Positions 44,729 through 64,000 of a stretch of DNA of 64,000 nucleotides are shown one piece after another. The DNA comes from Thermogemmatispora tikiterensis. Its GTDB lineage: Bacteria > Chloroflexota > Ktedonobacteria > Ktedonobacterales > Ktedonobacteraceae. A program made the translations under genes and the position numbers. Numbering within the stretch: position 1 is the first letter of the stretch; each line of letters starts with the position of its first letter. The stretch is taken from contig NZ_MCIF01000002.1 in assembly GCF_003268475.1 (NCBI RefSeq), positions 1,342,413-1,406,412 of the forward strand. Direction: 5' to 3'. A model generated the notes under the pieces. That model saw nothing but the letters and a program-made list of their open reading frames with translations. It was not told the origin of the DNA and did no database searches.

Positions 44729-46270
44729 ATGTTAAAAGAGCAAGAATATCAGCAGCAAAGCGAACCAGTGTCGAGGCAAAGTTATCAGGGTAGCGCCGCC
44801 ATTCTGGCTTTGTCCACCACCTCTCACTGTGAGCAGAGGCAGCTTGGCCTGCGAACGAGACGGCGCATCTCCAGCAACGACTGGCGGCTCATTCTGATTG
44901 GCGGCGATAGTCTACTATTGCTGGTGACCTTCACCCTGCTGATAGTACACAATCAGCCACCAGTGGAAAGCAGTAGTCGCCTGATCACACCCTGGGAAAC
45001 GCACCTCGCCTGGATCGGCTGCGCTGGGCTTCTCTGGGGCTTTGCCGCCCGCCTGACCCGCGCCTACGACCTCAATGGCATGTCAAGCCGCCTGGTCAGC
45101 CCTCTACGAGCTATCATTACACTGCTCCTACTGGCCGGCCTCTGGTTTGCCCTGAGCGCCACACTGGAAGGCCACGCCTTGCGTTCCTTGCTGCTCACAA
45201 CTCTCTCCTTTACCGGTGTCAGTCTTCCTCTGATCGCCGGCTGGCACCTCGCCATCGCCCAATGCTTGCACATGCCTCCCTTTCGGCGCCAGGGGGTGAT
45301 TGTCGGGCTCAACACCATCGGCGAAGCAATTGCACGAGAGCTGCAAGCTGCTCCCAGACGCTCAACCATCGATATCGTGGGCTATATCACAGAGGAGGAG
45401 AACCCACTGGCGCAGGCCGAGCCTGAGCGGCAGCTGCCTCTGCCCATTCTGGGCGGACGAGCTACGCTGCAGCGCTTGATTGAGCAGCAAGCCATTGACG
45501 TGCTGATTATGGCCACCGAGTATCAGGAGAATCCAGCCCTGGTACAGGACGCCATCACTGGGACCCACCTGGGGATCTCACTGGTACCCGCCCTCTGCGT
45601 CTATGAGAACGTCAGCGGCAAGATCCCTGTGGAGCAGATCGGGGGACAATGGTATATTGCCTTGCCAGGTGCCAACCTTTCTCCTCTCTACCTCTGCTGG
45701 CGCAAAGCACTCGATTTCACCTTTGGTCTCTTAGGCTTGCTGGTACTGATCTTGCTGCTGCCGCCACTGGCACTACTGATCCGTCTTGATTCGCCCGGTC
45801 CCCTCTTCCACTGTCAAGAGCGCCTGGGCAAGAATGGGCGCAAGTTCAAGATGTACAAATTCCGCTCAATGCACGTCGATGCCGAACCAGAGGGAAAGGC
45901 GATGTGGGCCAGCCACAACGATGCACGGGTGACACGAGTAGGACGCTTTCTGCGGGCAACTCACCTTGACGAGCTTCCCCAGGTCCTCAATATTCTGCGC
46001 GGGGAGATGAGCCTGATCGGCCCACGGCCCGAGCGGGAAGAGTTTGTGACCGTCCTGGAAAAAACGATCCCCTTCTATCGCTGCCGGCTGAGCGTTCCCC
46101 CGGGCCTAACAGGCTGGGCTCAGGTCAAATATCACTATACTTTTACCAGTCAGCAGGCACTGGAAAAGCTACAATACGATCTCTATTATATTAAGCACCA
46201 ATCATATATACTAGATATTCTAATTCTTTTAAGAACGATTATTGAAGTGATTAAATTGCGCGGTGTCTAA
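44729..46270 (+). CDS. Polyprenyl glycosylphosphotransferase, long WbaP-type initiating enzyme
   Basis: This 513-residue enzyme has about four N-terminal hydrophobic segments, a cytosolic CoA-binding-like domain (QGVIVGLNTIGEAIARELQA, about 189-208) and a further membrane segment before the catalytic domain. Catalytic motifs are DSPGPLFHCQERLGKNGRKF, KMYKFRSMHVDAE, THLDELPQVLNILRGEMSLI, GPRPEREEF and PPGLTGWAQVKY. It transfers a sugar phosphate to undecaprenyl phosphate to start repeat-unit synthesis. The last 20 codons are strikingly AT-rich compared with the rest of the gene. AGGGAGGAAG lies just upstream of the ATG. Confidence 0.92.
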   Translation: MLKEQEYQQQSEPVSRQSYQGSAAILALSTTSHCEQRQLGLRTRRRISSNDWRLILIGGDSLLLLVTFTLLIVHNQPPVESSSRLITPWETHLAWIGCAGLLWGFAARLTRAYDLNGMSSRLVSPLRAIITLLLLAGLWFALSATLEGHALRSLLLTTLSFTGVSLPLIAGWHLAIAQCLHMPPFRRQGVIVGLNTIGEAIARELQAAPRRSTIDIVGYITEEENPLAQAEPERQLPLPILGGRATLQRLIEQQAIDVLIMATEYQENPALVQDAITGTHLGISLVPALCVYENVSGKIPVEQIGGQWYIALPGANLSPLYLCWRKALDFTFGLLGLLVLILLLPPLALLIRLDSPGPLFHCQERLGKNGRKFKMYKFRSMHVDAEPEGKAMWASHNDARVTRVGRFLRATHLDELPQVLNILRGEMSLIGPRPEREEFVTVLEKTIPFYRCRLSVPPGLTGWAQVKYHYTFTSQQALEKLQYDLYYIKHQSYILDILILLRTIIEVIKLRGV

Positions 46271-48581: not shown

Positions 48582-48586
48582 GGACT

Positions 48587-50107
48587 ATGAGCATCGTTCA
48601 GAAGACAACCCAGCGCTCAATGTCAAGCGAGCGTGGAGGGAGGGAGCTGATCGCTCCCTCCACAGGGCATGTTGCTCTCCTCATCGGGGCTTTGATCCTG
48701 ATGGGCATGCTGGAAGTTTTCGCTCCTTTACTCGTCGGGACAGTCATTCCTTCCACCAGTGTGACCCGCCAGGCCGCCTCGATGTCAACAGCCTTGATCG
48801 CCGGCCTGCTATTTTTAGTTTTGCTGCTTTACCTGCGCTGCGACGAGATTCTGGCGGTGGCCGTTGCCCTGATTCATCTCTACCTTGACTTCTATATGTC
48901 CCTCATCGCGACAGCTCAGCTGCTCGCGCTCGTCCTTTTGCTGGTGTTCTTCCTCGGTCGCTCACAGCAGCGTCCTTGGGCAGAACCTCGTCCACTCTGG
49001 CTCTGGCTCCTCTTTTTAGGCCTGACTTTCTTTCCCTCCCTACGCGGAGCCACAAATTTGGATGATGCTCTCTTCTATTATCCGAATGTCATCGCCGGTT
49101 CCTTCCTTTTCTTCTGGCTGGGTCTGAATACGGCACGTAATCTGAAAAGCCTCTGGCTGGTCATGGAATTCCTGGCCGCCTTTGGTGCTTTGATCGCTGC
49201 TCATACGATTGTAATCGCGCTGACAGGCAAATTTATCCTGGGCACCTCCCTTCACGACCCATTCCTGAAGAGCGTTTCGAATTTCACTCTCGGCGATACC
49301 GGTGTACAACGCGTAGGGGGCTTCTTTATAGACCCGAATTGGAATGGGACCTTCTTCGCCTTCGTGCTCTTCATTCCTCTGGGCCTCTACGCACACAGTC
49401 GCTCCTGGCTGGCCCGCCTGCTTTATCTGGGTGAGGCACTACTGATTGGGCCTGCGCTGCTCTTCACATTCAGCGGTGGCGCCTGGGTAGCTGCCTGCTG
49501 CGGCCTGGCCTTCTTCCTGCTCTTCGTGGACAGCTGGAAGCTACGCCTGCAGATCGTTTTGAGCATCTTTCTCGTCTCACTCATCTTGATTCTCTTCTTC
49601 TTCGATCAGCTCCAGCTCCTCTTCGCTCATCTGACAGGCCAAGGAGAGCTATCACTGCGCCTGGGCGCCTGGGAAACGGCTTTGAATGTGATTATGGCTT
49701 ATCCACTCACAGGCGTGGGTTTCGGCTTGAGCATCTACATGCAGGTCTCAGATCCCTACCGCTCGCCACTTCAGTATGTGCCGCTGGCACATCCCCACGA
49801 TTCCTATCTGGAATTTGGGGCGATGGGCGGCCTGCCAGTCTTAGCAGTCTTCCTCGCACTCTTGATCTGCTACCTGTGGAAGGCCTGGCGCACCTGGCGT
49901 CTCTGTGATCAGCGCCATCGCGCACTGCTTGCCGGGGGCCTGGCTGCCGTTGGAGCGCTGTGCATCAATAGCATCAGCATCAATGGCTGGACTCTGCCAC
50001 CCCTGGCCTGCTTCGGCTGGCTCATGTTGGGCCTGCTCTCTTCTCCTCTGCTCCTGGCTAGCCTGGCCCCCACTTCCGCCATGATGGATACGCCCATGCG
50101 CGATTAA
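48587..50107 (+). CDS. O-antigen ligase/polymerase family membrane protein
   Basis: The 506-residue protein has about twelve hydrophobic segments. The Wzy_C-type block is near residues 330-410: GELSLRLGAWETALNVIMAY, PLTGVGFGLSIYM and AHPHDSYLEFGAMGGLPVLA, where the conserved HNxYLE/HDSYLE and GxGFG features are seen. It probably polymerises or ligates the glycan made by this locus. The ATG is 5 nt after the Wzc stop with AAGGA upstream, so the two are coupled. Confidence 0.87.
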   Translation: MSIVQKTTQRSMSSERGGRELIAPSTGHVALLIGALILMGMLEVFAPLLVGTVIPSTSVTRQAASMSTALIAGLLFLVLLLYLRCDEILAVAVALIHLYLDFYMSLIATAQLLALVLLLVFFLGRSQQRPWAEPRPLWLWLLFLGLTFFPSLRGATNLDDALFYYPNVIAGSFLFFWLGLNTARNLKSLWLVMEFLAAFGALIAAHTIVIALTGKFILGTSLHDPFLKSVSNFTLGDTGVQRVGGFFIDPNWNGTFFAFVLFIPLGLYAHSRSWLARLLYLGEALLIGPALLFTFSGGAWVAACCGLAFFLLFVDSWKLRLQIVLSIFLVSLILILFFFDQLQLLFAHLTGQGELSLRLGAWETALNVIMAYPLTGVGFGLSIYMQVSDPYRSPLQYVPLAHPHDSYLEFGAMGGLPVLAVFLALLICYLWKAWRTWRLCDQRHRALLAGGLAAVGALCINSISINGWTLPPLACFGWLMLGLLSSPLLLASLAPTSAMMDTPMRD

Positions 50108-50154
50108 TATATCTGATCTCTTCTAACTGACAGGTGCATCTCTGGAGAAGATCT

Positions 50155-52401
50155 ATGTCTATCTCTTATGAGTATGAAAAAGTGCGTAGTGGTAGTGAGC
50201 GCCAGGAAGGCGGCTGGCCTCAACAGCCCGGCCCCTATCCTGCAGCGGTTCTAGAGCTTTGTCTAAGCCTGAGCAACCCACTGGCTGCCAGTACGATCGC
50301 CTTACCAACAGCCTGGCGCGCTCTGGACCATTGGAATCGCTATCTAGAGAGCGGTGATCACCAGGAAAGGGATCTCTTCCTTGAAGAAACCAGGCACTTG
50401 CTCGCTTTGGAGCAGCCTCTCAACAATGGAGCTGGCGGCTGGTTGCTAGTCTCGACTCGACCCGGTGGCAGGGTGGCGCTTTGCCTCTCCGCCCTTATGC
50501 AGAGCTGCGCCCTGGCCGTCTTGCTGCGCGCTCTGAGTATGACTGGTGACCAGGTTCATGCATTGGCGCTGGAGCGCTGTCTGGAAACCTTCCGTTGCGA
50601 TATCCTGGATGGAGGTATTTGCTCCCCGCTCTATGCTGACGGGATCTTTTTCGAGGAGCTGGCGCTTTATCCGGCCCTCCACAGCTTCAACGGCATGGCT
50701 TTGGCCTTGCTCAGCCTCCACGAGCTGATACTGTATTGGCCCGCTTGCGATGAGGCGAGTCGACAGCTTTTCCAGCAAGCTCTCACTACCTTTGAGCAGA
50801 GTTTGAGTGAGTTCTCCGGGCCTTTTTGGCCCTATCGTGACCTGGCCACGCGCCATCTGGCAACGCCCCAGGAGCTAACTCTCCAGATTGCTTTGCTGGA
50901 CGCCCTGGCGACCTCGACGAAGAGCGAGGTTTGTGCCCACGCCCTCCAGCGCTGGCAACGTTATGCGAGAAGCCGGCAGGGCCGCCTGCGCTACCGCTGG
51001 TGGCATACCCGGCATTCCTTGAGTGCACGTCTCTGGCGTCGCTGGCAACCGCGCCTTTTTCCACGCCCGCTGGACTCCTCCAACCAGCTGCGCGTCTGCG
51101 TCCCTCTCCCGGCTTTTCCAGCCATCGGTGGGGTTCTCACGGTCCTGGAAGGCATTGAAGAGGCCATGCAGGGCCATTGGAGAATGGAATATCTCACACG
51201 AGCCATTACTGACCAGGAGACTGGTAGGTATATAATCCATCGCTTTGGCCGCTCCTGGATGGGCGCCTCCCACTTCCCGTTTGTCTGGTTCTATGTCTTG
51301 ACCGGCGCCGCCAGGCTGTTTGCTTTGCTACGCCAGGGGACAGCTTTTGACCTTGTACTGCCGCAGGATGCAGTCTTCTCTGCCTTGCTCTCCGCCCCAC
51401 TGGGACGCCTGGCCGGTGCACGCGTGATTTGTATTGATCACGGTCATCTGACGCTGCTCCAGGAAGATATTCATCCACTACACCTGGCCGAGCGCAGGCG
51501 TCTGCTCGCTCATCGCAGTCGCCTGCGCCGCTTTATCGGGCGTGTGCAGGAGTGGTGCTACTGGCCCTCCTATCGCCTGATGCTCCGCTTAGCAGCCCGA
51601 TGTGTTGACCAGTATCTGGTGCCAGGCGTCGCGGGCGATGGCGTGGAGACGATGGCAGCACGTTTCGGTATCCCCGCCAGCCGCGTGGTGCGCTTCGCCA
51701 GCATGGTCAATATCGAGCGCTATCCAGTGCCCTCTGAGGAGGAGCGCGCGCGTCGCCGCCAAGAATATGGGTTAAGGCAGGACGATATGGTGGTGGCCAT
51801 CGCCTGCCGCCTTACGCCAGAGAAAGGCCTTGATCTCGCGCTGGCCAGCCTGGCTCGTGCCCTGGAGCATTTACAGCCCGGTACCCGAGCCAGGGTGCGC
51901 CTGATGATTGCCGGCGATGGACCTTTGCGCCCGGAGCTTGAGCAGACGATTGATCAGCTCCAGCTCCAGGAGCATTGTGCTCTCTGGGGCGAGCTGCCTG
52001 CGCCTGAGATTGCCCGGCTCCTTTCGATCAGCGATATTTTTCTCTACACTAGTACCCGCGGCGCTTGCTTCTCAATGGCCGTACTGGAGGCAATGGCCGC
52101 AGGCTGCGCAGTGATTGCTTCAACCCGTCCGCCCTCGAATGCGCTGCTGCTTGCCGAGGGACGCGGCATTGCAGTCAGACCGGCTGATATAGAGGAGACC
52201 GCCAACGCGCTCGTACGCTTGCTCGCCAACCCTGCTCTCTGCCGCCAGATGGGTCAGGCCGCTCGGGCCTATATTGCCGATCGACACAGTCCCGAGGCTT
52301 TCCGACGGGTTCTGCTCCGGGCCTCTGGCTGGGCAGCTCTGGAGCAGATCACTACAGAAACGGTGGCCCGTACCGGCCTAGAGGGGGAAGTTGAGGATTG
52401 A
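50155..52401 (+). CDS. Fusion of glucuronyl C5-epimerase-like domain and GT4 glycosyltransferase
   Basis: The protein has about 748 residues in two parts. The N-terminal 300 residues look like the alpha/alpha-barrel C5-epimerase C-terminal domain (PF06662 type): GGWLLVSTRPGGRVALCLSA, MQSCALAVLLRALSMTGDQV, LDGGICSPLYADGIFFEELA and LHSFNGMALALLSLHELILY, which matches the family's FEEYP...LNGFxxALxGLYD pattern. The C-terminal 430 residues are a GT4: ICIDHGHLTLLQEDIHPL, a donor domain with AIACRLTPEKGLDLALASLA, LMIAGDGPLRPELEQ and FLYTSTRGACFSMAVLEAMA. GGAGAAG lies directly before the ATG at 50155. The stop overlaps the flippase start. Confidence 0.8.
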   Translation: MSISYEYEKVRSGSERQEGGWPQQPGPYPAAVLELCLSLSNPLAASTIALPTAWRALDHWNRYLESGDHQERDLFLEETRHLLALEQPLNNGAGGWLLVSTRPGGRVALCLSALMQSCALAVLLRALSMTGDQVHALALERCLETFRCDILDGGICSPLYADGIFFEELALYPALHSFNGMALALLSLHELILYWPACDEASRQLFQQALTTFEQSLSEFSGPFWPYRDLATRHLATPQELTLQIALLDALATSTKSEVCAHALQRWQRYARSRQGRLRYRWWHTRHSLSARLWRRWQPRLFPRPLDSSNQLRVCVPLPAFPAIGGVLTVLEGIEEAMQGHWRMEYLTRAITDQETGRYIIHRFGRSWMGASHFPFVWFYVLTGAARLFALLRQGTAFDLVLPQDAVFSALLSAPLGRLAGARVICIDHGHLTLLQEDIHPLHLAERRRLLAHRSRLRRFIGRVQEWCYWPSYRLMLRLAARCVDQYLVPGVAGDGVETMAARFGIPASRVVRFASMVNIERYPVPSEEERARRRQEYGLRQDDMVVAIACRLTPEKGLDLALASLARALEHLQPGTRARVRLMIAGDGPLRPELEQTIDQLQLQEHCALWGELPAPEIARLLSISDIFLYTSTRGACFSMAVLEAMAAGCAVIASTRPPSNALLLAEGRGIAVRPADIEETANALVRLLANPALCRQMGQAARAYIADRHSPEAFRRVLLRASGWAALEQITTETVARTGLEGEVED

Positions 52402-54050
52402 AGCCAACAACACCACAGCCTTACCCAGCCTACCCAGGGCCAGGGCCGCAATATCCACAGTATGCGCCGAGCTATCAGCCAGCGCCAGCGGTGCAGGTCG
52501 CTCGACCAGTGCAGCCGGCCCTGCCAAGGACGCCGCAACCCAGTACCCCAGCACCAGCCCAGGAGAAGCGCAATGACTATGTGGGTCAGCTGCGCACGCT
52601 GGTCAAGAGCAGCGGGATCTACGCCCTCTCCTCTTTGGCTGGCCCGCTGACCTCACTGGTGCTGGCTCCTTTTCTGACGCATGCGCTCTCGCGCGACGAG
52701 TATGGTGCTCTCTCCGTGCTGCTCTCAGCTATCTCGCTGATCGCTGGCATCACTCAGCTCGGCCTGGGGAATGCCTTTTTTCGCGCCTATGGCTACGACT
52801 ATGAATCGCGCAGCGAGCGCCTGCGCGTGCTCTCGACGCTGGTGGGCCTTCTGCTGGCGATCTCGATTGTGGTCACCCTGGCCATGTCTTTAGGCGCAGC
52901 CTTCATTGCCTTGCTCCTCTTCCAGTCAGCCCTTCTGACAGCGCCAGTGCAGGCCGCAGCTTTGGTGGTGCTGCTGCAGAATTTGAGCGTGCCGGGCCTG
53001 GCCTGGCTGCGAGCGGAGAACCGTCCTACGCTCTATGCGACACTTTCGATCGCTAATCTACTCGTGGGCCTCGTCGCAACCTTGCTCTACGTGGGACCCA
53101 TGCATTTGGGCATGACCGGGGCCTTGCTAGGCACAGCCAGCGGCTATGCCATTGTGGTTTTCGGCATATTGCCTGTGATCCTCTGGGAAGCAGGCCTGAC
53201 CTTCGACCGAGAGATGGCTCGCAATATGTTATCTTTCGGCGTACCACTGGTGGCAAGCTTCGTGTCCGTCTGGGTGCTGCAGCTCTCAGATCGCTATCTC
53301 CTGAGCCGTTTTGGCTCGCTGGCCGAAACCGCCAGCTACTCGATTGCCTATACACTGGGCAACGTCCTGGGCGTGCTGGTCATCTCGCCTTTCAACCTGG
53401 CCTGGCCTACGACTATGTTCTCTGTAGCTCGTCGCCGCGACGCGCCTCAGATCTTCAGACTGATCTTCCGCTGGTTCAGTGTGGTCCTTTTGCTGGCCGC
53501 CTTTGGCCTCTCACTCGCCGGGAAGTTCTTGCTAGAGGTCCTCTTCCCCGCCAGCTACCAGGGGGCCTCGCCTGTGATCTCTTTAGTGGCCATGTCTATG
53601 GTCTTTTACGGCATTTACAACGTCTTCAATGTAGGAATATCGATCAAGAGAAGAACATGGTATGCAGTAGTTCTGACGGCAGAGGCTGCTATCTTTAACG
53701 TGGTGTTGAATGTGGTACTCATTCCCCTCAGTGGCGCACTCGGCGCGGCCTTTTCAACACTACTGGCCTACGCTTTCCTCTCGTTTCTCGCTTATCTGGT
53801 GAACAACCAGATGTATCCAGTGCCCTTCGAGGTCGGCTTCTTTCTCTGCGTGCTAGCCATCGGGATCGCCCTCTACTTCGTCGCGGCATTCCTCGCCCAA
53901 GGCCTCGATCCGCTGAGCAGCGCCGTTCTTTATGGGCTGACCTGGCTGGCCTACGCCGTCATCCTGCTGGTACTGGCTCGCCTGCCACTACAGCAGCTTG
54001 CTCGCCTGCGCTATTCCTTTCCCGGAAGGAGAGTGAAAAGAAGCCTATGA
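52398..54050 (+). CDS. Wzx-type polysaccharide flippase with Pro/Tyr-rich N-terminal tail
   Basis: The 550-residue protein has about fourteen hydrophobic segments of the MATE/MOP exporter fold: SSGIYALSSLAGPLTSLVLA, PFLTHALSRDEYGALSVLLS, LGLGNAFFRAYGYDYESRSE and the later FGVPLVASFVSVWVLQLSDR, then YLLSRFGSLAETASYSIAYT. It flips undecaprenyl-linked repeat units to the outer leaflet. The start is a TTG overlapping the previous stop (TTGA), with GGGGGAAG 7 nt upstream. The first 60 residues form a cytosolic tail rich in Pro, Gln, Ala and Tyr, with five Tyr among residues 9-27. This is not normal for Wzx proteins. Confidence 0.85.
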   Translation: MKPTTPQPYPAYPGPGPQYPQYAPSYQPAPAVQVARPVQPALPRTPQPSTPAPAQEKRNDYVGQLRTLVKSSGIYALSSLAGPLTSLVLAPFLTHALSRDEYGALSVLLSAISLIAGITQLGLGNAFFRAYGYDYESRSERLRVLSTLVGLLLAISIVVTLAMSLGAAFIALLLFQSALLTAPVQAAALVVLLQNLSVPGLAWLRAENRPTLYATLSIANLLVGLVATLLYVGPMHLGMTGALLGTASGYAIVVFGILPVILWEAGLTFDREMARNMLSFGVPLVASFVSVWVLQLSDRYLLSRFGSLAETASYSIAYTLGNVLGVLVISPFNLAWPTTMFSVARRRDAPQIFRLIFRWFSVVLLLAAFGLSLAGKFLLEVLFPASYQGASPVISLVAMSMVFYGIYNVFNVGISIKRRTWYAVVLTAEAAIFNVVLNVVLIPLSGALGAAFSTLLAYAFLSFLAYLVNNQMYPVPFEVGFFLCVLAIGIALYFVAAFLAQGLDPLSSAVLYGLTWLAYAVILLVLARLPLQQLARLRYSFPGRRVKRSL

Positions 54051-55315
54051 CTACGGTATCTGAAGCCCCAGATGTGACTGTTGACCTCACGCCGCTTTTT
54101 CAGGGACAGCGGGTTGTCATGCTCAGGTTCGCCCCAGCCATTGGCGATGCGCGCTTGTGGCGCACCGCTATTGCTCTGAAGGAGGCAGGTCTGCAGGTCA
54201 CCATTGTGGACGTTGTCGGGTCATACACCTCTCCCCGCGAGGAGATTCACCAGGGGATCAGGCTGAAACACATTCTCATGCCCGCCTGGTTTACTCCAAC
54301 GCGCTTTAAGCCCTGGTTCCTGGTGAAGCTGCTCCGCCTCAATCTATTAAGTATTCTCTATCTTCTGCAGGAAGAGGCAGACATCTATCATTCATTTGTG
54401 GAGCATACATTACCAGCTACCTTTGTAGCAGCGAAACTGCGACATAAGCCCCTGATCTTCGATTCGCCTGAACTGCCTCTGTCTGATCGAGCAGTCCAGC
54501 ATTGGCCTCGCCTCCTGGCGATTGCACGCCGCGTGCTGCGCTATCTCATTCGACACAGCCAGGGGGTAATCGCTGTCTCACCGCCTATCGTCTCCTTCAT
54601 CGAGCGCGAGTACGGCGGCCAGCGTGTCACGCTCCTGCGCAATGTACCACCTTACCGGCAGGTTGAGCGCGCTAACCTTTTACGCGAGAAATTAGGTTTA
54701 TCAAATGATATCCGCATTGCGCTCTATCAGGGGAATTTACAGGAAAACCGTGGCCTCGATCTGCTTGTGCGGGCCGCTCCATTTCTTGAGTCAGACGTCG
54801 TGATCGTCATGCTCGGGGCCGCCCGCGCGCCAATACAACAGAAACTGCAGCAGCTAATCGCCGAGCTTGGGGTAGAGGAGCGTGTGAAACTGCTGCCGCC
54901 CGTTCCCTACGAGGAACTCCTCAGTTGGACTGCTTCAGCCGACCTCGGCCTGACCCTGCTTCCCTCCGATTACTCGCTGAGTATCCGCTACTGCCTGCCA
55001 AACAAGTTTTTTGAGTACTTGATGGCAGGACTTCCCGTGCTTAGCTCTCAGCTGGATGTGATTGCCGAGCTGATCCAGATCCACCAAGTGGGAGTGGTTG
55101 AGCCGTCGCGTGATCCAGCCACCGTTGCTGCCACCATCAATCGGGTCATTCACGACCAGGAGGCTCTGGAGCGCATGCGCTGCCACGCCCTGGAGATTGC
55201 GCGTCGCGAGTTCAACTGGAACCGTGAGCAATTTCATCTGTTTGAACTCTATCAGGCGCTGCTGCCAGCAAGCTCGACTAGCGCGTCAGCGCCACAGCAG
55301 GAGGAATCACTTTGA
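54047..55315 (+). CDS. Glycosyltransferase family 4, first of a tandem pair
   Basis: The 422-residue GT-B enzyme has an N-terminal domain with FAPAIGDARLWRTAIALKEA, DIYHSFVEHTLPATFVAAKL and LIFDSPELPLSDRAVQHW. A central AVSPPIVSFIEREYGGQRVT and LLRNVPPYRQVE follow, then the donor half IALYQGNLQENRGLDLLVRA and VKLLPPVPYEELLSWTASAD. LPNKFFEYLMAGLPVLSS is the acidic-loop region. The start overlaps the flippase stop in ATGA. It is clearly paralogous to the next gene. Confidence 0.88.
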   Translation: MTTVSEAPDVTVDLTPLFQGQRVVMLRFAPAIGDARLWRTAIALKEAGLQVTIVDVVGSYTSPREEIHQGIRLKHILMPAWFTPTRFKPWFLVKLLRLNLLSILYLLQEEADIYHSFVEHTLPATFVAAKLRHKPLIFDSPELPLSDRAVQHWPRLLAIARRVLRYLIRHSQGVIAVSPPIVSFIEREYGGQRVTLLRNVPPYRQVERANLLREKLGLSNDIRIALYQGNLQENRGLDLLVRAAPFLESDVVIVMLGAARAPIQQKLQQLIAELGVEERVKLLPPVPYEELLSWTASADLGLTLLPSDYSLSIRYCLPNKFFEYLMAGLPVLSSQLDVIAELIQIHQVGVVEPSRDPATVAATINRVIHDQEALERMRCHALEIARREFNWNREQFHLFELYQALLPASSTSASAPQQEESL

Positions 55316-56568
55316 CAGAGTTGTTAGCCAGCCAGCGCCCCAATAAGGCTACCGAGGCTTCAAACAGAGAGCGTGCAGGAGGTTTACCCCCCCTGCGGGT
55401 CTGTATGCATGTACTGGGCCAGGGAAAGAGCGATGTACGAGTAATGCGGGCCGCCACCGCGCTCAGCGCCGCCGGGTGTCATGTCAGTGTGGTCGATTTG
55501 GAGTCCCAAGAACAACCTGCTCGTGAGCAAGTCCAGGGCATTGCTCTGCAGCATGTACGGCTGGCCCCCGAGTTTTTCTCATCTCGTTTCAAACGTCGCG
55601 CTCTACTGCGAGCTGCCTCTCTCTTCGTGCGCGGTACGTGGCAGGTGCTGAGCACCGACGCGGATGTTTATCACGCTCATGATGTTGCCGCTTTACCAGC
55701 TTGCTACCTGGCCTCGCGCCTGCGCCGGAAACGGCTGGTCTTTGAGGCTCACGAAATGCCTCTGGAGGAGCATCCCCTCTCTTCGATGAACCGGGGGCGG
55801 CGCTTGCTTCACCATCTGCTAACCCTGCTCATGAAGGGGATGATTCCAGCCAGCGATGGCGTGATCACGGTCTCTCCACCAATTGTTGAGGAGCTTCAGC
55901 GTCGCTACCGGATCAAACACCTGGCGCTGGTACGCAATATTCCTCCCTATCAGCAGGTGGCACGTACTAGACGGCTACACGAGGCCCTCGGCCTTGCACC
56001 TCAGATCCGCCTCGCACTTTATCAGGGACGCCTCCAGGCCAACCGCTCGCTGGATCTTCTGGTCAAGGCTGCCCGCTATCTTGATCCCGAGATCGTGATT
56101 GTGCTCTTAGGGAAAGGATTGGGCAATGCCGCAGAGGAGCTGGAACAGTTGATTGCGGCAGAGCAGGTCAGCGACCGCGTGAAGCTCTTGCCCGCAGTAC
56201 CTTACGCTGAGCTGTTGAGCTGGACAGCCTCGGCAGATCTGGGCTTACTGGTCGCCTCGCCCGACTATTCGCTGAATGTGCGGATGTTTCTGCCCAATAA
56301 GCTGTTTGAGTACATTATGGCCGGCGTACCCGTTCTGACCTCGGCCCTGCCTGCCGTGGTAGAGCTGGTGCAGGCTTACGGCCTGGGTGAGGTGCTTAGC
56401 GAGCTTACTCCTCAAGCCATTGCCAGGGCCATTAATGGAATGTTCGCCCGCCCAGAGAGGCTGGCTACCATGCGCCAGTATGCTCTACAGGCGGCCTCCT
56501 CCGATCTGCATTGGGAGAAGGAACAGGAAAACCTACTGCAACTATACCAGCAGATCGTCAACAGTTAA
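55312..56568 (+). CDS. Glycosyltransferase family 4, second of a tandem pair
   Basis: The 418-residue protein follows its neighbour almost block by block: AHDVAALPACYLASRL, LVFEAHEMPLEEHPLSSMNR, GVITVSPPIVEELQRRY, LVRNIPPYQQVA, LALYQGRLQANRSLDLLVKA, VKLLPAVPYAELLSWTASAD and LPNKLFEYIMAGVPVLTS. The N-terminal acceptor half has diverged more than the donor half, suggesting the same type of donor and a different acceptor. The start is a TTG with AGGAGG 7 nt upstream, overlapping the previous stop in TTGA. Confidence 0.87.
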   Translation: MTELLASQRPNKATEASNRERAGGLPPLRVCMHVLGQGKSDVRVMRAATALSAAGCHVSVVDLESQEQPAREQVQGIALQHVRLAPEFFSSRFKRRALLRAASLFVRGTWQVLSTDADVYHAHDVAALPACYLASRLRRKRLVFEAHEMPLEEHPLSSMNRGRRLLHHLLTLLMKGMIPASDGVITVSPPIVEELQRRYRIKHLALVRNIPPYQQVARTRRLHEALGLAPQIRLALYQGRLQANRSLDLLVKAARYLDPEIVIVLLGKGLGNAAEELEQLIAAEQVSDRVKLLPAVPYAELLSWTASADLGLLVASPDYSLNVRMFLPNKLFEYIMAGVPVLTSALPAVVELVQAYGLGEVLSELTPQAIARAINGMFARPERLATMRQYALQAASSDLHWEKEQENLLQLYQQIVNS

Positions 56569-56626: not shown

Positions 56627-57358
56627 GTGGAAGACTTTACTTTACAAGGCTATCGTCAACTCCTCTCGGCCTTTGCCAGCCGAGGCTACCGTTGCTCGCT
56701 TTTTGATGCTCTTGAAGAACGGCTAGCAAGCGGTGAGCGGATACTGCTTCTGAGACACGATATTGATATCAGCCTAAAAGCAGCTCTGGAGATTGCCCGG
56801 GTCGAACACGAGTTAGGCTTCCAGGCCACGTATTTTGTGATGCTGTCCTCTCCATTCTATAATGTACTTAGCACAGAAAGTGCTCGTCTTCTAGAGCAGA
56901 TTCATAATTATGGACATGACATCGCCCTTCATATTGATCTACAGGATTATCACGGTCAGCGTCTTGACGTTGCCCAAGAAATAGCGATCCTGGCTCACTT
57001 CTATCCCTATGTCAAGCGGGATATCGCGAGCGTCCACAGTCCGCGCACGCTCTCCAGCATTCCGGTAGAAGAGGCCAGGCCGATCTATAGGGTCTACCAT
57101 TTAGCTCAGCGGGGCGATCTTGCCTATATCAGCGATTCAACAGGACGCTGGCGCTATGGCCACCCGCTGCAGTCAGCCGCTTTTCGTGAAAAGAAGGCGA
57201 TTCAGCTCCTGACACACCCCATTTGGTGGGTGGCCGAAGGAGCAACACCCAGACAGAAGCTGGAAAGCTGGCTCTATCGCAGCTACGAGGGGAACCTGGA
57301 ACTGGCTAAAACCTTTCTTCCCAAGCTTTTTGGCCAACAGGAGGTCGAGACGACTTAG
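56627..57358 (+). CDS. NodB-like polysaccharide deacetylase family protein
   Basis: The 243-residue protein has a NodB-type opening motif ILLLRHDIDISLKAALEIAR (about 39-58) with the paired Asp, then ELGFQATYFVMLSSPFYN and HDIALHIDLQDYH, which could hold the second metal-binding His. It has no signal peptide, so it would be cytosolic, unlike secreted deacetylases. Homologues in polysaccharide loci are known, often without a defined substrate. The start is a GTG with AGAAGAG upstream. Codon usage is more AT-rich than in the GT genes before it. Confidence 0.7.
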   Translation: MEDFTLQGYRQLLSAFASRGYRCSLFDALEERLASGERILLLRHDIDISLKAALEIARVEHELGFQATYFVMLSSPFYNVLSTESARLLEQIHNYGHDIALHIDLQDYHGQRLDVAQEIAILAHFYPYVKRDIASVHSPRTLSSIPVEEARPIYRVYHLAQRGDLAYISDSTGRWRYGHPLQSAAFREKKAIQLLTHPIWWVAEGATPRQKLESWLYRSYEGNLELAKTFLPKLFGQQEVETT

Positions 57359-57453
57359 TCATCGGCAAGAAGATCTCAAGAGCAGCGGGGCCGGGCCGGT
57401 CGCCATTCTGGCATGACCATCGCGCAGGAAGTCAAGCAGGGAGCGACGAACGT

Positions 57454-58599
57454 ATGAAGCAGGTGTATCATTGGCAGAAGCGTGCCTTTTTGCTGCTCAG
57501 CGTCTCGGTTATAGTCATCCTGGTAGGAGCTGGTTGGCTGCTACATCCCTGGTGGGTGATTACCAACTCGCCGCTGGTTTCTCAACTGACCATCAGCAGC
57601 CCGCGCTTCTCCGGCTCCAGCGGACAGGAAAGCCGCTTCAAGGACCTGCGCCTGATCGGCGGCTTCACCGTCGGAACCCCTGCCGAGGTAGCTGAGGCTG
57701 CTGCCTTGGGGATGCGGGTTGTCTTTGAGTACGGCAATCCTCCCTCGCCTGAGAGCGAACTAGGGCAGGCGCTGCAGGCTGCTCACATGCAGGTCATCGA
57801 TGGCTATATCTCTAGCTATCTGCAGTATTACGAGTGCCACCGCACAAAGACGGTCAAGCCACCACCGCCCGGCGCCCATCCTTACTGCGGGCGTGACTCT
57901 GTGCCGATTCCAAGCGAAGAGGCTTTGCTTCAGCTTGTCAGACGGCATCTCGAAGAGACCCGGTCTAATCCGCTCATTCTGGGTTACTGGGTGCTCGATG
58001 ACTGGGTGCTGTGGGACCCCGGCAGCGCCCGTGAGCTGTTAATCAAGTTCCATGACTTGATCCAGCAATACACACCACAGCGCCCAGCCATCTGCGGTTT
58101 TGGCGCCTCGCCTCCTTCAGGTTTCGACACCGGCTGGCACGACGCGGTGGCGGCTAACTTCACGCCCGAGGGCTGCGACATGATCGGTCTCTACATCTTC
58201 ACAGTCTTGCAAGCCAAGGAGGATGCCTCAGCCAGCCGCTATGACTGGTCGATGCGCAGCACTCTGAATGCCATGTTCGCTAGCCTGCAGAAACGGGGCT
58301 GGAACTACACTCAGACACCTCTGATTGGGATCGCCCAGGCTTTCGGCGGCCCCTCGACGCGTCCAGGCTTGAGCTGGCCCCTGCCAAGCACTGCCGATAT
58401 TGTTCAGCAAAGCCAGAGCTTCTGCCAGCATGGAGCTACCGGCATCGCTTATTACGGCTGGGACGCCAATCTCTACAGTCCGCAGACCCAAACGCCTGCC
58501 AATAATCGCGCTATTCAGGAGGGCATTCGTCAGGGTATTGCCGCCTGTCAGCACATTTGGAGCACAGCCGAACAGGGGACTCCCCAGGCAATGGATTAG
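57454..58599 (+). CDS. Exported protein of unknown function, TIM-barrel-like
   Basis: The 381-residue protein has a basic N-terminus, an uncleaved-type membrane anchor (about 11-35) and an extracellular part. Repeating strand-like segments such as LRLIGGFTVGTPAEVAEAAA, MRVVFEYGNPP, PLILGYWVLDDWVLWDPG, CDMIGLYIFTV, PLIGIAQAFGG and TGIAYYGWDANL have the look of a TIM-barrel hydrolase, with LDDW and GWDAN as candidate acidic active-site spots. Several cysteines are spaced for disulphides. I do not recognise the family. It closes the second EPS locus, so a glycan-modifying or -cleaving role outside the cell is possible. ATG at 57454; the upstream site is weak. Confidence 0.5.
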   Translation: MKQVYHWQKRAFLLLSVSVIVILVGAGWLLHPWWVITNSPLVSQLTISSPRFSGSSGQESRFKDLRLIGGFTVGTPAEVAEAAALGMRVVFEYGNPPSPESELGQALQAAHMQVIDGYISSYLQYYECHRTKTVKPPPPGAHPYCGRDSVPIPSEEALLQLVRRHLEETRSNPLILGYWVLDDWVLWDPGSARELLIKFHDLIQQYTPQRPAICGFGASPPSGFDTGWHDAVAANFTPEGCDMIGLYIFTVLQAKEDASASRYDWSMRSTLNAMFASLQKRGWNYTQTPLIGIAQAFGGPSTRPGLSWPLPSTADIVQQSQSFCQHGATGIAYYGWDANLYSPQTQTPANNRAIQEGIRQGIAACQHIWSTAEQGTPQAMD

Positions 58600-58971: not shown

Positions 58972-61017
58972 ATGGATCTTCAGCAAGAAGAGCTGCACAG
59001 TAGCAAACTCTCTGCGCTAGCAATGGTGGCTAGAGGTGTAATCGAGGAGAATCCCGGTCGTCTCCTGGCGAGCGAAGCAGAACAGCCACCCAGCCTCTGG
59101 GCCGCAGTTAAACGAGATTATCCACGTGATGCCTGTATACCGGCTCTTGTTGCTCAGCAGGCGCGCGAGCGCCCGCAGGCCCCAGCAGTAGTGACAGCGG
59201 GGACTACTTTGAGCTATCAGGAGCTCAACCGGCGAGCCAATCAGCTGGCTCATTATCTCCGAGCGCTAGGGATCTACCCTGGTGTTCCGGTCGGCCTCTA
59301 CCTGGAGCGCTCACCGGAGATGGTAGTGGGGCTACTAGCTATTCTCAAAGCCGGCGGGGCCTATTTGCCACTTGACCCGTCTTATCCCCACGAGCGCGTA
59401 TGCTTTATGCTGGAGGACGCGCAGGCCCCCGTATTGGTCACAACTTCTCGTCTGGCCCGCCAACTTGAGCAGGAAACAGCGATCCCGACGAGGCAACGTG
59501 TCTACCTAGATCAGGATGCCGTCAAGCTGGCTGCCCAGTCAACGGGAGAGATCCAGGAACAACAGGCCAGGGCAGCCGATCTGGCCTACGTGATCTATAC
59601 CTCGGGTTCAACCGGGCGCCCCAAGGGTGTGGAGGTCACCCATGATAGCCTGCTGAATTTGATCTTCTGGCACCAGCGTGTCTTTTCCGTGAGCGCTGCC
59701 GATAGGGCCAGCCAGGTGACCAGTCCAGCTTTTGACGCAACCGGCTGGGAGCTTTGGCCTTATCTGACATGCGGCGCCACTGTCTATTTGCCGGCTGATG
59801 AGCTTCGTCTCTCCGCACCAGCACTGCGTGACTGGCTGGTTGAGCAGGCAATCACCATCGCTTTCTTACCAACGCCGCTGGCCGAACGTTTGATCCAGCT
59901 CCCATGGCCTCGCGAAACTGCTCTGCGCTTCTTGCTGACGGGAGCCGATACGCTCCGCCGCTATCCACAGCCCGGCCTGCCCTTCACGCTGGTGAACAAC
60001 TACGGACCGACCGAGGCCACGGTGGTAGCGACTTCCGGCCCTGTGCCGCCAGTGAGCGAGCCGTTGGCAGAGCCTCCATCTATTGGCTGGGCTATTGACA
60101 ATACGTCGATTTACATTCTCGATGAAGCGCTCCGCCCTGTGCCCTGGGGAACACCTGGCGAGCTGTATATCGGCGGCCAGGGAGTGGCTCGTGGTTATCG
60201 AGGACGCCCAGAGCTGACCGCTGAGCGTTTTCTCCCTGATCCATTTGCTCAACAGCCTGGGGCCCGGATGTATCGTACGGGCGATCAGGCACGCTTCTTG
60301 CCAGATGGCCAGATTGCCTTCCTGGGCCGCCTGGATACTCAGGTCAAGATTCGAGGCTATCGCATTGAGCTGGACGAGATAGCCACGGTGCTCAATCAGC
60401 AGCCGGGGATCACTGCCAGCGTCGTCATCGCTCGCGAGGAGCTACCTGGCGAGAAGCAACTCGTGGCCTATGTGGTCACCTCGCCAGAAGCGCGTCCCAC
60501 ACCCTCCCAGCTGCGTACGGCGCTCGCCAAGCAGTTGCCCGATTACATGCTTCCCACGATCTTTGTGCGTCTGGAAGCCCTGCCACTGACTGTGCATGGC
60601 AAGATCGATCGGGCGGCATTACCCCCACCTGAAGCCAGCGAGATCCTGTCAGAAGCTCCAGAGACAGGAGAGGCAGACATAGAAAGCCTGGCTGCTCTGC
60701 CTGCGACAGAGGCGGCTGCGGACCCAGCCAACGCTATCGAGCAACAGGTGGCCGAGGTAGTCTGCTCGCTGCTGGGACGCCCAGCAATCGATGCTAATGC
60801 CAACTTCTTTATGCTCGGTGGCCACTCTCTGCTGGGGGCCCAGCTCATCTTACGCCTGACCGAGCTGTTCGGGGTACAGATTTCGCTGCATACGCTGTTT
60901 ACCGCACCGACAGTACGTCAGCTCGCCGCTTGCATCGAGCAGCTACTGCTTGAGCGCCTGGCCACTATGAGTGAGCAGGAAGCCTGCAGCTTGCTAGAGC
61001 AGTTGCAGAACAGGTGA
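58972..61017 (+). CDS. Stand-alone NRPS adenylation-carrier protein, predicted leucine-specific
   Basis: The 681-residue protein has an adenylation domain (about 50-550) and a peptidyl carrier domain (about 580-655). Core motifs are LSYQELNRRANQLA, LAYVIYTSGSTGRPKGVEVT (A3), FDATGWELW (A4), NNYGPTEATV (A5), GELYIGGQGVARGY, YRTGDQARFLPDG, GRLDTQVKIRGYRIELDEI and HGKIDR (A10 Lys). The carrier motif is FFMLGGHSLLGAQL, with the phosphopantetheine Ser about 618. Reading the GrsA-aligned pocket residues gives D-A-W-F-L-G-N-V-V-K, the published leucine code. There is no condensation or thioesterase domain, so it is a loading or free-standing module. The stop overlaps the P450 start in GTGA. Confidence 0.9.
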   Translation: MDLQQEELHSSKLSALAMVARGVIEENPGRLLASEAEQPPSLWAAVKRDYPRDACIPALVAQQARERPQAPAVVTAGTTLSYQELNRRANQLAHYLRALGIYPGVPVGLYLERSPEMVVGLLAILKAGGAYLPLDPSYPHERVCFMLEDAQAPVLVTTSRLARQLEQETAIPTRQRVYLDQDAVKLAAQSTGEIQEQQARAADLAYVIYTSGSTGRPKGVEVTHDSLLNLIFWHQRVFSVSAADRASQVTSPAFDATGWELWPYLTCGATVYLPADELRLSAPALRDWLVEQAITIAFLPTPLAERLIQLPWPRETALRFLLTGADTLRRYPQPGLPFTLVNNYGPTEATVVATSGPVPPVSEPLAEPPSIGWAIDNTSIYILDEALRPVPWGTPGELYIGGQGVARGYRGRPELTAERFLPDPFAQQPGARMYRTGDQARFLPDGQIAFLGRLDTQVKIRGYRIELDEIATVLNQQPGITASVVIAREELPGEKQLVAYVVTSPEARPTPSQLRTALAKQLPDYMLPTIFVRLEALPLTVHGKIDRAALPPPEASEILSEAPETGEADIESLAALPATEAAADPANAIEQQVAEVVCSLLGRPAIDANANFFMLGGHSLLGAQLILRLTELFGVQISLHTLFTAPTVRQLAACIEQLLLERLATMSEQEACSLLEQLQNR

Positions 61018-62396
61018 AGCAGGGAGAGAAGCGTGTAACGCGCCTGCTGGCTGCCAGAATAGGGGGAGAGAGCAGCCAGCCTGGTTTGCGACTGCAAGAA
61101 GAAGAAACGGTCAGTCTTGTTGCTGGACAAGAGGAGCCCAAGACAATTATGCAGGAACCGAGGTCGGTGACGCCGCCGCAGCGGCAGGAGCCACCACTAA
61201 GTCTGTATCATCTACTCGATCCAGAGATTCTGGCCAATCCTTATCCGCTATACCACCGCCTGCGTCGTGAGGACCCTGTTCACTGGGACCCCTTTTTACA
61301 CGCCTGGGTAGTGACGCGCTATGCCGATGTCATTACGGTCTTTCAGCGCTTTTCTGCTCAGCGCACGCCAACCCCTGAGCAGCTAGAGGCTATGGGGATG
61401 CAGGCGTTGACTCCTCTGGCCCGCGTCATGGTGAAGCAGATGCTGTTTCTGGACCCGCCAGCCCATACGCGGGTGCGCAGTCTGGCAGCGAAGGCTTTTA
61501 CTCCTCGCCGCGTGGCCGTGCTGCGCGAGCATATCCGCGACATCGCTCACAGCTTGCTCGATCGCGTTCAAGCTCAGGGACACATGGACGTGATCGCGGA
61601 CCTGGCTTACCCTTTACCGGCGATCGTCACTGCAGAGATGCTGGGGGTGCCAACGGAGGATTGGCAGCAGTTGACAGCCTGGTCAGCTGATTTCGCGCAG
61701 GTGCTCGGGAACTTTCAACATAACCCGGACCGCGTGGCTCAGGTGATTCGCAGTCTCAATGAGATGACTGCCTATTTTCGCACAGCCATCAGGGAAATCG
61801 AGCGCCATCCGCGCGAGGGCTTGATCCATGCATTCTTGACCGCCGAGATCGATGGCGATCGTCTGAGCGAGGAGGAGATTATCGCCAATACGATTATTAC
61901 GATGGTGGGAGGGCAGGAGACAACGACCAATCTGATCGGGAATGGCGTGCTGAGCTTACTGCGCCACCCGGATCAGCTTGCTCTACTGCGCGCAGATCTC
62001 TCACTGATCCCATCGGCAGTGGAGGAGTTGCTGCGCTACGAGAGTCCCAGCCAGCATACGGCTCGTCTGGCCCCCGAGGATACAGAACTGGGTGGGAAGA
62101 AGATTCGGAAGCGCGATGCAGTGATCGCGGTTATGGGTGCAGCTAATCGCGATCCAGAGCGCTTCCCCGATCCCGACCGCCTCAATATTCGACGCGAGGA
62201 CAATCGCCATGTGGCCTTCGCCTGGGGCAGTCATTTCTGCTTCGGGGCAGCTCTGGCGCGTATTGAGGGTCAAATTGCCATCGAGCTGATTGTGCGTCGC
62301 CTGCCCAGCCTCCGGCTGGAGCCAGGTCCGCTTGTCTGGCGTGAGAATCTCGGCCTGCGTGGCCTCAAAAGTTTGCCGGTATCTTGGGAAAGGTGA
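61014..62396 (+). CDS. Cytochrome P450, probably acting on the carrier-bound amino acid
   Basis: The protein has 460 residues from a GTG overlapping the NRPS stop, or 415 from an ATG at 61149; the shorter form fits the usual bacterial P450 size, and the first 45 residues are polar and unlike the family. Motifs counted from the GTG are the I-helix VGGQETTTNLIGNG (about 296-309), ExxR in EELLRYESPS (about 336) and the heme loop FAWGSHFCFGAALAR with the Cys ligand at about 409. It lacks a membrane anchor, so it is a soluble class I-type enzyme that needs external redox partners. Tight coupling to an A-PCP gene suggests it hydroxylates the tethered leucine. Confidence 0.9.
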   Translation: MKQGEKRVTRLLAARIGGESSQPGLRLQEEETVSLVAGQEEPKTIMQEPRSVTPPQRQEPPLSLYHLLDPEILANPYPLYHRLRREDPVHWDPFLHAWVVTRYADVITVFQRFSAQRTPTPEQLEAMGMQALTPLARVMVKQMLFLDPPAHTRVRSLAAKAFTPRRVAVLREHIRDIAHSLLDRVQAQGHMDVIADLAYPLPAIVTAEMLGVPTEDWQQLTAWSADFAQVLGNFQHNPDRVAQVIRSLNEMTAYFRTAIREIERHPREGLIHAFLTAEIDGDRLSEEEIIANTIITMVGGQETTTNLIGNGVLSLLRHPDQLALLRADLSLIPSAVEELLRYESPSQHTARLAPEDTELGGKKIRKRDAVIAVMGAANRDPERFPDPDRLNIRREDNRHVAFAWGSHFCFGAALARIEGQIAIELIVRRLPSLRLEPGPLVWRENLGLRGLKSLPVSWER

Positions 62397-62406
62397 GAGG
62401 TGAACG

Positions 62407-64000
62407 ATGAGCGAGAATCACTCGGCGGAGAATGTACGACAACTACTGCTAGAGCAGTTGCGCCAGAAGAAATTGGTCGGCGAACCTCTGGCTCAGAGGC
62501 TGCTAACACCGCTTCCCCGATATGAGCGAGGACAGGTTCTGCCGCTCTCGTTTGGGCAGCAGCAGCTGTGGTTTCTCTCTCGCCTGGCAAAGGAGCCAGT
62601 CTATAACGAGTGCGTGACTGTCCACCTGCCAGGCTCTCTCGACCGCAAAGTATTCGAGCGCAGCTTTAACGAGTTTATCAGACGCCATGAGATCTGGCGC
62701 ACGAGCTTTCCCGAGAAGAATGGACAGCCTATTCAAAAGATCCATCCCTTCGAGCCGATTGAATTGCCTTTTGTGGATCTGCGGCATCTTCCTCCAGAAG
62801 AGCGAGAGAAAGAGGCTCAACGTCTGGCTGCCGAGCAGGCTCGCCTCCCTTTTGATTTGGCAAACGGTCCTCTTGTGCGCGGTCTGCTTATTCGATTTGA
62901 GGATCGGCTCCATCGCCTCTATCTAACTTTACATCATATCATTTTTGATGGAGTCACTCTCTACCAGGTTTTTTTGCCAGAACTGTGGACACTCTATCAG
63001 GCATTTTGCGCTGATCGCTCCTCACCTCTGCCTGAGCCAGCTTATCAGTACGCTGACTACACGCTCTGGCAACAGGCTTCTGTCAATCAGAGCTTACTTG
63101 ATCAACAGCTCGCCTATTGGCGAGAGGCGCTTGCAGGGGCACCGGCGTTGATTAATTTGCCTACGGATTTCCCAAGGCCGCCAGTTCAAAGCTTCCGTGG
63201 GGGGATGGTACCTTTCACCCTGAGCCAGGAGCTAACCGAGGCACTCAAGAGGTTGGCGCGTGAGGAAGGTATGACGCTTTATATGGTCCTGATGGCCTCT
63301 CTCCAGCTCTTGTTGTATCGCTATACGCAACAGGAGGAGATTGTAGTTGGAGCAGTCCTGGGAAGCCGCGAACAACGTCCCGAGTTTGCCAGGATGCCAG
63401 GATATTTTTTGAATACGCTCCCGCTCACTTGCAAGTTGACAGGCAGTTCGAGCTTCCGCTCACTATTGCAACAGGTCCGCGAGAGAATAATAGGGGCAAT
63501 TGCTCATCAGGATATACCTTTTAGCTACCTGGTGGAGCAGCTCCAGGTGGAGCGCTCAGCGGCATGGAATCCACTGTTCCAGGTAACCCTGACGCTGGAG
63601 CCACAGCTGCCAGTGCTGCCTTCGGGCTGGACGATTACGCAGATGGATGTGAGTGCGGGGGCATCTAAGTTTGATCTTTCGCTGGAGGTGGATGACCGAC
63701 CCGATGGGAGATTGATCGGGCGCTTTGAGTATAGCAGCGAGTTGTTTGAAGAGCAGACCATTGTCCGGCTCGCCCGCCACTGGCAGACCCTGCTCTCCTC
63801 CCTCGTCTCCGACCCTTCCTGCTCCCTCGCCTCTCTCCCCCTCCTCTCTCCCGAGGAACGCCACCAGCTCCTCGTCTCCTTCAGTTCCTCCTCCCAGACC
63901 CTCCCTCCTTCTCCCGCTCCTGCTATCCACCTCCTCTTCGAAGCCCAGGCCCAGCGCTCTCCCTCCTCCTGCGCCCTCCTGGACCTGCCTTCTGGCTCCT
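62407..64000 (+). CDS. NRPS condensation-adenylation protein, N-terminal part (runs off the window)
   Basis: From the ATG at 62407 (preceded by GAGAGGTG) the frame stays open to the window end, 531 codons. A short N-terminal helix region (about 1-30) is followed by a condensation domain: LPLSFGQQQLWFLSRL (C1), RRHEIWRTSF (C2), the active-site HHIIFDG (His about 176-177, Asp 181), YADYTLWQ, VGAVLGSREQRPEFARMPGY (C5) and QDIPFSYLVEQL. The last 60 residues cross the C-A linker and begin an adenylation domain (HLLFEAQAQRSPSSCALLDL). It should condense the (possibly hydroxylated) leucine from the first module with its own amino acid, whose code lies outside the window. Confidence 0.9.
   Translation, partial: MSENHSAENVRQLLLEQLRQKKLVGEPLAQRLLTPLPRYERGQVLPLSFGQQQLWFLSRLAKEPVYNECVTVHLPGSLDRKVFERSFNEFIRRHEIWRTSFPEKNGQPIQKIHPFEPIELPFVDLRHLPPEEREKEAQRLAAEQARLPFDLANGPLVRGLLIRFEDRLHRLYLTLHHIIFDGVTLYQVFLPELWTLYQAFCADRSSPLPEPAYQYADYTLWQQASVNQSLLDQQLAYWREALAGAPALINLPTDFPRPPVQSFRGGMVPFTLSQELTEALKRLAREEGMTLYMVLMASLQLLLYRYTQQEEIVVGAVLGSREQRPEFARMPGYFLNTLPLTCKLTGSSSFRSLLQQVRERIIGAIAHQDIPFSYLVEQLQVERSAAWNPLFQVTLTLEPQLPVLPSGWTITQMDVSAGASKFDLSLEVDDRPDGRLIGRFEYSSELFEEQTIVRLARHWQTLLSSLVSDPSCSLASLPLLSPEERHQLLVSFSSSSQTLPPSPAPAIHLLFEAQAQRSPSSCALLDLPSGS
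63775..64000 (+). other. Abrupt pyrimidine-rich tract at the C-A linker
   Basis: From about 63775 the coding strand becomes strongly C/T-rich, with Ser, Leu and Pro written almost only as TCC/CTC/CCT-type codons. The preceding condensation-domain sequence is mixed and rather AT-rich (for example 62920-62970). The reading frame is unbroken. Confidence 0.8.

Follow-up and report, generated by a model that had tools for sequence, protein, structure and literature searches.

In the heat-loving bacterium Thermogemmatispora tikiterensis (Chloroflexota, Ktedonobacteria), a cytochrome P450 is encoded directly downstream of a free-standing adenylation-peptidyl carrier protein (A-PCP) with a leucine code, and both genes adjoin an operon of the exopolysaccharide type, which raises the question of what this P450 oxidises and for which product. 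The two genes occupy positions 58,972 to 62,396 of a stretch of 64,000 nucleotides (NCBI RefSeq assembly GCF_003268475.1, contig NZ_MCIF01000002.1, positions 1,342,413 to 1,406,412), which is called the window here and in which all features given below lie on the plus strand. The original prediction, made from the letters of this DNA, had seen in them a cassette for the hydroxylation of carrier-bound leucine; it was right about the A-PCP, the leucine code and the P450, wrong about a GTGA overlap of the two genes, and it missed the exopolysaccharide setting and the occurrence in genomes assigned to several phyla. There is good support for a leucine A-PCP to which a P450 directed at the carrier is dedicated, and it is rather probable, taken as a whole, that the two genes constitute a leucine-dedicated oxidation cassette that supplies the starter residue of a peptide, with a possible link of this peptide to the exopolysaccharide.

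The A-PCP is encoded by an intact open reading frame (58972..61017, 681 aa) in which Pfam finds an AMP-binding domain (2.5e-84), AMP-binding_C and PP-binding (1.5e-16) only, with the adenylation (A) domain at about 59152-60198 and the carrier protein (PCP) at about 60742-60936. There is no condensation (C) domain, and the protein is thus indeed free-standing. Aligned with GrsA, the reference of which was checked against PDB 1amu_A, the pocket of the A domain reads D-A-W-F-L-G-N-V-V-K, with the invariant lysine present. The code DAWFLGNVVK stands first among the commonest codes of leucine, isoleucine and valine domains (224, 104 and 197, respectively) in the relevant part of PMC12283262, where leucine is mentioned first for it, and it is taken as leucine in an excerpt of the scytocyclamide paper PMC7524897. 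Among 67 related loci that could be read automatically, 53 have DAWFLGNVVK, six have DAWFLGNVLK, three have other single-residue variants, and five are partly readable, and this near-invariance supports the predicted loading of leucine.

The P450 and the A-PCP are very often found together. In a sample of 400 Chloroflexota genomes, a match to the P450 at E 1e-60 was found in 119, and a close relative (at least 61% identity) in 20, the genome of the window included, the other matches listed having at most 51% identity. The 20 stretches that were examined cover 19 other Chloroflexota genomes, and in 17 of these 19 the A-PCP lies directly upstream on the same strand, while it is divergent in one and the P450 is at a contig edge in another. 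A scan of a genome collection matched 227 stretches and gave 205 relatives, 80 of which are the basis of all locus counts; by their record titles, these 80 loci belong to Chloroflexi, Acidobacteria, Rokubacteria, Verrucomicrobia, Planctomycetes, Alphaproteobacteria and Actinobacteria, with many of the sources being metagenome-assembled, so that some assignments may be wrong. In 74 of the 80 loci, an A domain and a PCP immediately precede the P450 and share its strand, and the remaining six comprise three near contig ends, two with a divergent A-PCP, and one with a C domain in between. As a control, ten paralogous P450s (45-51% identical) were inspected, of which nine lack any match to A, PCP or C domains within the 8-12 kb examined and one sits in another cluster of nonribosomal peptide synthetases (NRPSs). 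Judged by gene order, the A-PCP and the P450 are one unit, and their pairing goes beyond chance.

That a soluble P450 follows directly on the A-PCP was borne out (61149..62396, 415 aa, PF00067 7.1e-27), but its gene starts at the ATG at 61149. Database copies of the P450 have 413-443 residues, mostly 415, which corresponds to this ATG, and the MQEP start that it gives is common to all six Thermogemmatispora sequences compared. In three of the five congeners (G050, G059 and G132), the reading frame is interrupted by a stop codon between the end of the A-PCP gene and the ATG of the P450. The GTGA overlap, by which the two genes had been thought to be fused or translationally coupled, is therefore accidental, and coupling by this motif is ruled out; the open reading frame from the GTG at 61014 is longer in the window by chance.

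As to the kind of P450, an AlphaFold model (mean pLDDT 90) has its best fold matches in the PDB in the complexes of P450 BioI with acyl carrier protein (3ejb, 3ejd and 3eje; TM 0.87/0.93, 39-40% identity), and a sequence search of the PDB agrees in placing BioI closest (3ejb_B, 3e-86); PksS and PikC are also among the closest solved relatives. BioI is also known as CYP107H1. The nearest solved relative thus itself binds a carrier protein, and in these comparisons the P450 does not group with an unrelated catabolic family. NovI, NikQ, OxyD and P450sky are not named among the best 60 of 503 sequence matches or the best 50 of 1682 fold matches in the PDB, which excludes nothing, and the names of annotated relatives on plasmids (25 of 133 records) were no more telling than "cytochrome P450" or "type I polyketide synthase".

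Natural fusions point in the same direction. In seven Acidobacteria loci, the P450 is the N-terminal part of a chain P450-C-A-PCP-thioesterase (TE), in four further loci the chain is P450-A-PCP-TE, and there is one fragment in addition. A search of long proteins in the database gave 343 matches, and the 120 of these that are listed all have P450 and AMP-binding domains. Among the plasmid records listed, the best relative of the P450 (48% identity) is that of a Nostoc plasmid and lies directly after a fatty acyl-AMP ligase-acyl carrier protein (FAAL-ACP). The fusions, the BioI-ACP complexes as the closest structures and the Nostoc P450 behind its FAAL-ACP argue for a carrier-bound substrate. 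As the pairing with the A-PCP is conserved, the code is nearly constant, and the fusions to NRPSs exist, this substrate is likely the carrier-bound leucine, and the predicted action of the P450 on a tethered residue is supported to this extent. The Nostoc plasmid pNLP2 (L141 6652-10203) encodes the FAAL-ACP, the 48%-identical P450, a polyketide synthase and an NRPS, and this arrangement may be seen as the fatty-acyl counterpart of the leucine cassette, with an acyl loader in the same position.

Directly after the P450, an NRPS gene starts (62407..63999) that encodes a docking-like N-terminal helix and a C domain with the motif HHIIFDG (Condensation 6.9e-104). By its open reading frames and domain order in the adjoining sequence (L009/L010), the cluster continues beyond the window with A-PCP, C-A-PCP and C-A-PCP-TE up to L010:667. 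Since the A-PCP has no C domain and the protein with the next C domain has a docking-like N-terminus, the predicted role as a starter unit is supported; the C-terminus of the A-PCP itself is an NRPS docking-like tail, as a comparison of the C-terminal tails of 11 loci indicated. The last A domain of this cluster has the code DSTLTGEVWK, to which no residue can be assigned, and the three later A domains of a sister genome (G068) read DSALIAEVWK, DSALIAEVWK and DSALIGEVWK. DSALIAEVWK is placed under histidine in the part of PMC12283262 that deals with it, and is said there to accept the beta-hydroxy form. The A-PCP would thus load leucine onto its carrier, the P450 would hydroxylate it while it is tethered as Leu-S-PCP, and docking would hand the oxidised leucyl group on to the following C domain, where it would open a short peptide whose next residues, as coded in sister genomes, would be of the histidine type. 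With less certainty, this peptide may belong to the exopolysaccharide that is made by the neighbouring Wzx/Wzy genes. The joint of C and A domains is nearly identical in three successive modules of the NRPS and strongly C/T-rich (63725-64000; L009 11138-12966 and 14799-16409), and there are runs of N in the second and third A domains of the assembly (2209 N in L009), which may reflect a recent duplication or gene conversion left unresolved by the assembly.

The exopolysaccharide genes lie upstream of the cassette. A bacterial sugar transferase for the first step of exopolysaccharide assembly (44729..46270, PF02397 6.7e-63) is followed by a Wzz-type chain length determinant/tyrosine kinase (46524..48581, PF02706 4.1e-9, AAA_31), a Wzy/O-antigen ligase-type protein (48587..50107, PF04932 4.9e-18), a glycosyltransferase with an N-terminal C5-epimerase-like domain (50134..52401, PF00534 2e-28, PF06662 1.7e-15), a Wzx-type flippase (52398..54050, PF01943 6.1e-16) and two further glycosyltransferases (54047..55315, PF00534 5.3e-18; 55312..56568, PF13439 5.8e-16). 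With sugar transferase, Wzx, Wzy, Wzz and glycosyltransferases in one run from 44729 to 56568, this is an operon of the Wzx/Wzy type. Two unassigned proteins, both with no Pfam match at 1e-3 and no NCBIfam match at 1e-5, are encoded between this run and the A-PCP. The first (56627..57358) is present in five of six Thermogemmatispora stretches, the sixth of which begins downstream of its place, and the second (57454..58599, 381 aa) is conserved in all six just before the A-PCP.

The proximity is not a peculiarity of this genome. Linkage was examined for 34 cassettes in 32 genomes that were chosen for larger contigs, with PF02397 and PF04932 as markers within 25 kb; distances, and all counts of linkage and of C-domain matches given here, refer to the matches listed, and expectations to the full per-genome marker counts. 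Twenty of the 34 cassettes lie at most 25 kb from a PF02397 gene, as compared to about 2.9 expected from marker density, and 15 of these 20 are also near PF04932. Of the next-closest paralogous P450s, none out of eight is near a marker. Likewise, only one out of 27 other NRPS clusters of the same genomes has a marker nearby, a control into which most listed C-domain places were entered (those omitted lie inside clusters already represented) and for which markers were taken only from genomes with other NRPS clusters. In a P450 tree that comprises the window, two references and 71 of the 80 loci (loci whose P450 match was short or missing were left aside), the exopolysaccharide label needs at least five changes on well-supported branches. 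Neighbour families in the 80 loci include glycosyltransferases (20), a flippase-like protein (15; PF13440 20.4/23 bits and thus below the curated cut-off), sugar transferase (14), an XrtA-type ATPase (11; 256.5/324.5, also below), sulfotransferase (9), polysaccharide deacetylase (9) and Wzy (7).

Several observations weigh against the leucine cassette and its link to exopolysaccharide. The most distant Chloroflexota member (L060) has the code DPNFHGNVVK, and for this reason the leucine code is not exceptionless; in the two divergent loci, the A-PCP is not in line with the P450. In the window, a gap of 372 bp separates the A-PCP from the last upstream gene, because of which co-transcription with the exopolysaccharide genes is unproven. 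Finally, 14 of the 34 cassettes have neither PF02397 nor PF04932 within 25 kb, and as the 32 genomes are related and hand-picked, the counts are not independent and a binomial figure of the marker test overstates its significance. A scan of 57300-62600 gave one promoter-like site, on the minus strand, and thus fewer than the 1.8 in shuffles, and six terminator-like sites (shuffles 3.8, sd 2.2), none of them in the gap before the A-PCP.

The cassettes that have no marker nearby lead to the explanation that competes most seriously, an ordinary secreted nonribosomal peptide whose cluster merely adjoins exopolysaccharide genes. It is in keeping with this explanation that a phosphopantetheinyl transferase gene is found instead or as well in 18 of the 80 loci, and that many loci resemble plain NRPS clusters. 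The rarity of markers near other NRPS clusters of the same genomes speaks against it, and so does the locus L102, where NRPS genes are interleaved with exopolysaccharide genes. There, a same-strand run comprises chain length, XrtA-type ATPase, Wzc-like, prolyl-PCP dehydrogenase-like and proline-type A domain genes, and then sugar transferase, the leucine A-PCP, P450-C-A-PCP-TE, flippase-like, sulfotransferase, GH10, Wzy and epimerase genes; from the sugar transferase onward, the gaps in this run measure -124 to 31 bp. For 14 of the 32 genomes, the cassette cluster holds the sole C-domain match at E 1e-20, and the product of that cluster is therefore more likely to be a permanent feature of the cell surface than just one of many antibiotics. 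Two genomes (G286 and G420) even have the cassette with no C-domain match at E 1e-20 in their assemblies, among the matches listed, and the cassette may therefore be able to function where no NRPS forms a peptide. An ordinary secreted peptide is thus a real possibility, with a chance that falls somewhat short of even.

A second alternative accepts the tethered leucine as the substrate, the hydroxylation of which is likely, and concerns the site of attack. It holds that the P450 oxidises the gamma or delta carbon, or that it desaturates or cleaves, and that the cassette yields another oxidised leucine unit. Its basis is that BioI, PksS and PikC are the closest solved relatives, whereas nothing in the analysis groups the P450 with named beta-hydroxylases. 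BioI carries out in-chain oxidation and cleavage of acyl-ACP, and cleavage of C-C bonds and hydroxylation at other positions are likewise within the reach of BioI-like P450s. Since these P450s are so versatile and the tertiary gamma C-H of leucine would be an easier target, hydroxylation at the beta carbon is not established. What argues for the beta carbon is the operon logic of PCP, P450, and then NRPS or thioesterase, which is that of known beta-hydroxylation cassettes, such as PlyQ/PlyR/PlyS in the sections of PMC3943440 on these genes. By this analogy, beta-hydroxylation is plausible though unproven, and the beta carbon is a likelier site than elsewhere; oxidation at another position should be taken as a minority view that is by no means negligible. 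A third alternative, for which the fused forms with the P450 on the downstream NRPS chain could speak, has the P450 act not on the leucine of the A-PCP but on the peptide, during its growth or after its completion, on a later carrier. It is improbable, because the leucine A-PCP is nearly constant while the modules downstream differ in code and number or are not seen next to the P450, and because in minimal cassettes of Ktedonobacteria the carrier of the A-PCP is the sole one seen next to the P450.

The preferred explanation, oxidation of leucine on the carrier of the A-PCP, has precedents. NovH/NovI, NikP1/NikQ and similar systems are pairs of an A-PCP and a P450, and as in these, a free-standing A-PCP is encoded next to the P450 and the tethered amino acid is the likely substrate; unlike them, the amino acid here is leucine and not tyrosine or histidine, and the genes are often found in exopolysaccharide loci. 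The closest described set that was found is that of polyoxypeptin, PlyQ (PCP), PlyR (P450) and PlyS (TE), which also has PCP, P450 and thioesterase genes in a row and, as far as the relevant sections of PMC3943440 go, is the proposed source of 3-hydroxyleucine, production being lost when the genes were inactivated. According to that paper, PlyR has 37% identity to NikQ, which is described in the same sections; PlyQ, however, is a discrete PCP, and the unit is proposed to be released and then activated again. BioI differs in its partner, a fatty acyl-ACP, whereas the neighbouring gene here encodes a leucine A-PCP, a difference drawn from gene context. The logic is hence that of known A-PCP/P450 cassettes, and what is new is the type of P450, the spread, the fusions and the exopolysaccharide context. 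An open-access literature search at the level of result listings showed no system with NRPS or A-PCP/P450 genes in exopolysaccharide loci, and the consulted part of a review on Ktedonobacteria (PMC6497799) does not discuss this pair.

The most far-reaching reading would be a system shared across phyla: exopolysaccharide operons would produce carrier-bound leucine oxidised by the P450, either by itself or at the start of a short nonribosomal peptide, and NRPS thioesterases, docked cysteine thioesterases or tandem-GNAT acyltransferases would transfer it to the polysaccharide. As a whole this is doubtful, and the attachment is its boldest part, suggested by nothing but gene linkage. If true, it would be an unrecognised nonribosomal decoration of bacterial surface sugars with peptides or amino acids, and nonribosomal peptide chemistry would be tied to exopolysaccharide assembly in Chloroflexota, Acidobacteria and others. 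If the cassette is interpreted correctly, it also offers a clearly delimited family of P450s, whose partner and amino acid hardly vary, for studying how P450s recognise carrier-bound substrates, and as natural P450-NRPS fusions and minimal three-gene forms exist, the question is approachable with small constructs.

Among the accessory genes, thioesterases are the most conspicuous. In four Ktedonobacteria loci, a stand-alone thioesterase with the same docking-like helix comes next after the P450. The nucleophile elbow is GWCNGG in the TE of the window cluster and GFCNGG in a stand-alone TE, and in 61 rows the nucleophile is Cys in 31 and Ser in 28, with two unread. In having Cys, these enzymes resemble ObiF1, SulM and AB3403, the cysteine-nucleophile thioesterases named in the consulted part of PMC11298585, and in the use of Ser by other cassette TEs they differ from them. 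AB3403 (4zxh) is the third of 29 PDB matches of a stand-alone TE, among which ObiF1 and SulM are not named. Beta-lactone formation by a cysteine thioesterase was considered and not adopted, because only some of the TEs have Cys and because the oxidised residue is the first and not the last in the NRPS forms. The stand-alone TE of Dictyobacter kobayashii (L065 11249-12273, the same as L048) is split into two open reading frames, by a frameshift or a sequencing error.

A protein family of about 370 residues occurs in 11 of the 80 loci, with no Pfam match above the cut-off in the members tested, right after the P450 in L108, L114, L122, L124, L131 and L138, and after the NRPS in L077 and L103. 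It is predicted to have a tandem-GNAT/N-myristoyltransferase fold, and because N-myristoyltransferase, tandem-GNAT and Eis structures are close in Z score, it is called no closer than tandem GNAT. In the window, the fusion of a glycosyltransferase to a D-glucuronyl C5-epimerase C-terminal domain (50134-52401, PF06662) suggests epimerised uronic acids in the exopolysaccharide. A second A domain with DLFYLALVCK, a code of the proline type, is found in 12 loci (L086, L090, L094, L096, L097, L100, L102, L107, L111, L112, L113 and L118). Nine of these have a dehydrogenase, the representative of which is close to PigA and RedW but below their cut-offs (PigA-like 445.8/500), and with the proline-type A domain and this dehydrogenase, the exopolysaccharide operon may also give rise to a pyrrole-2-carboxyl unit.

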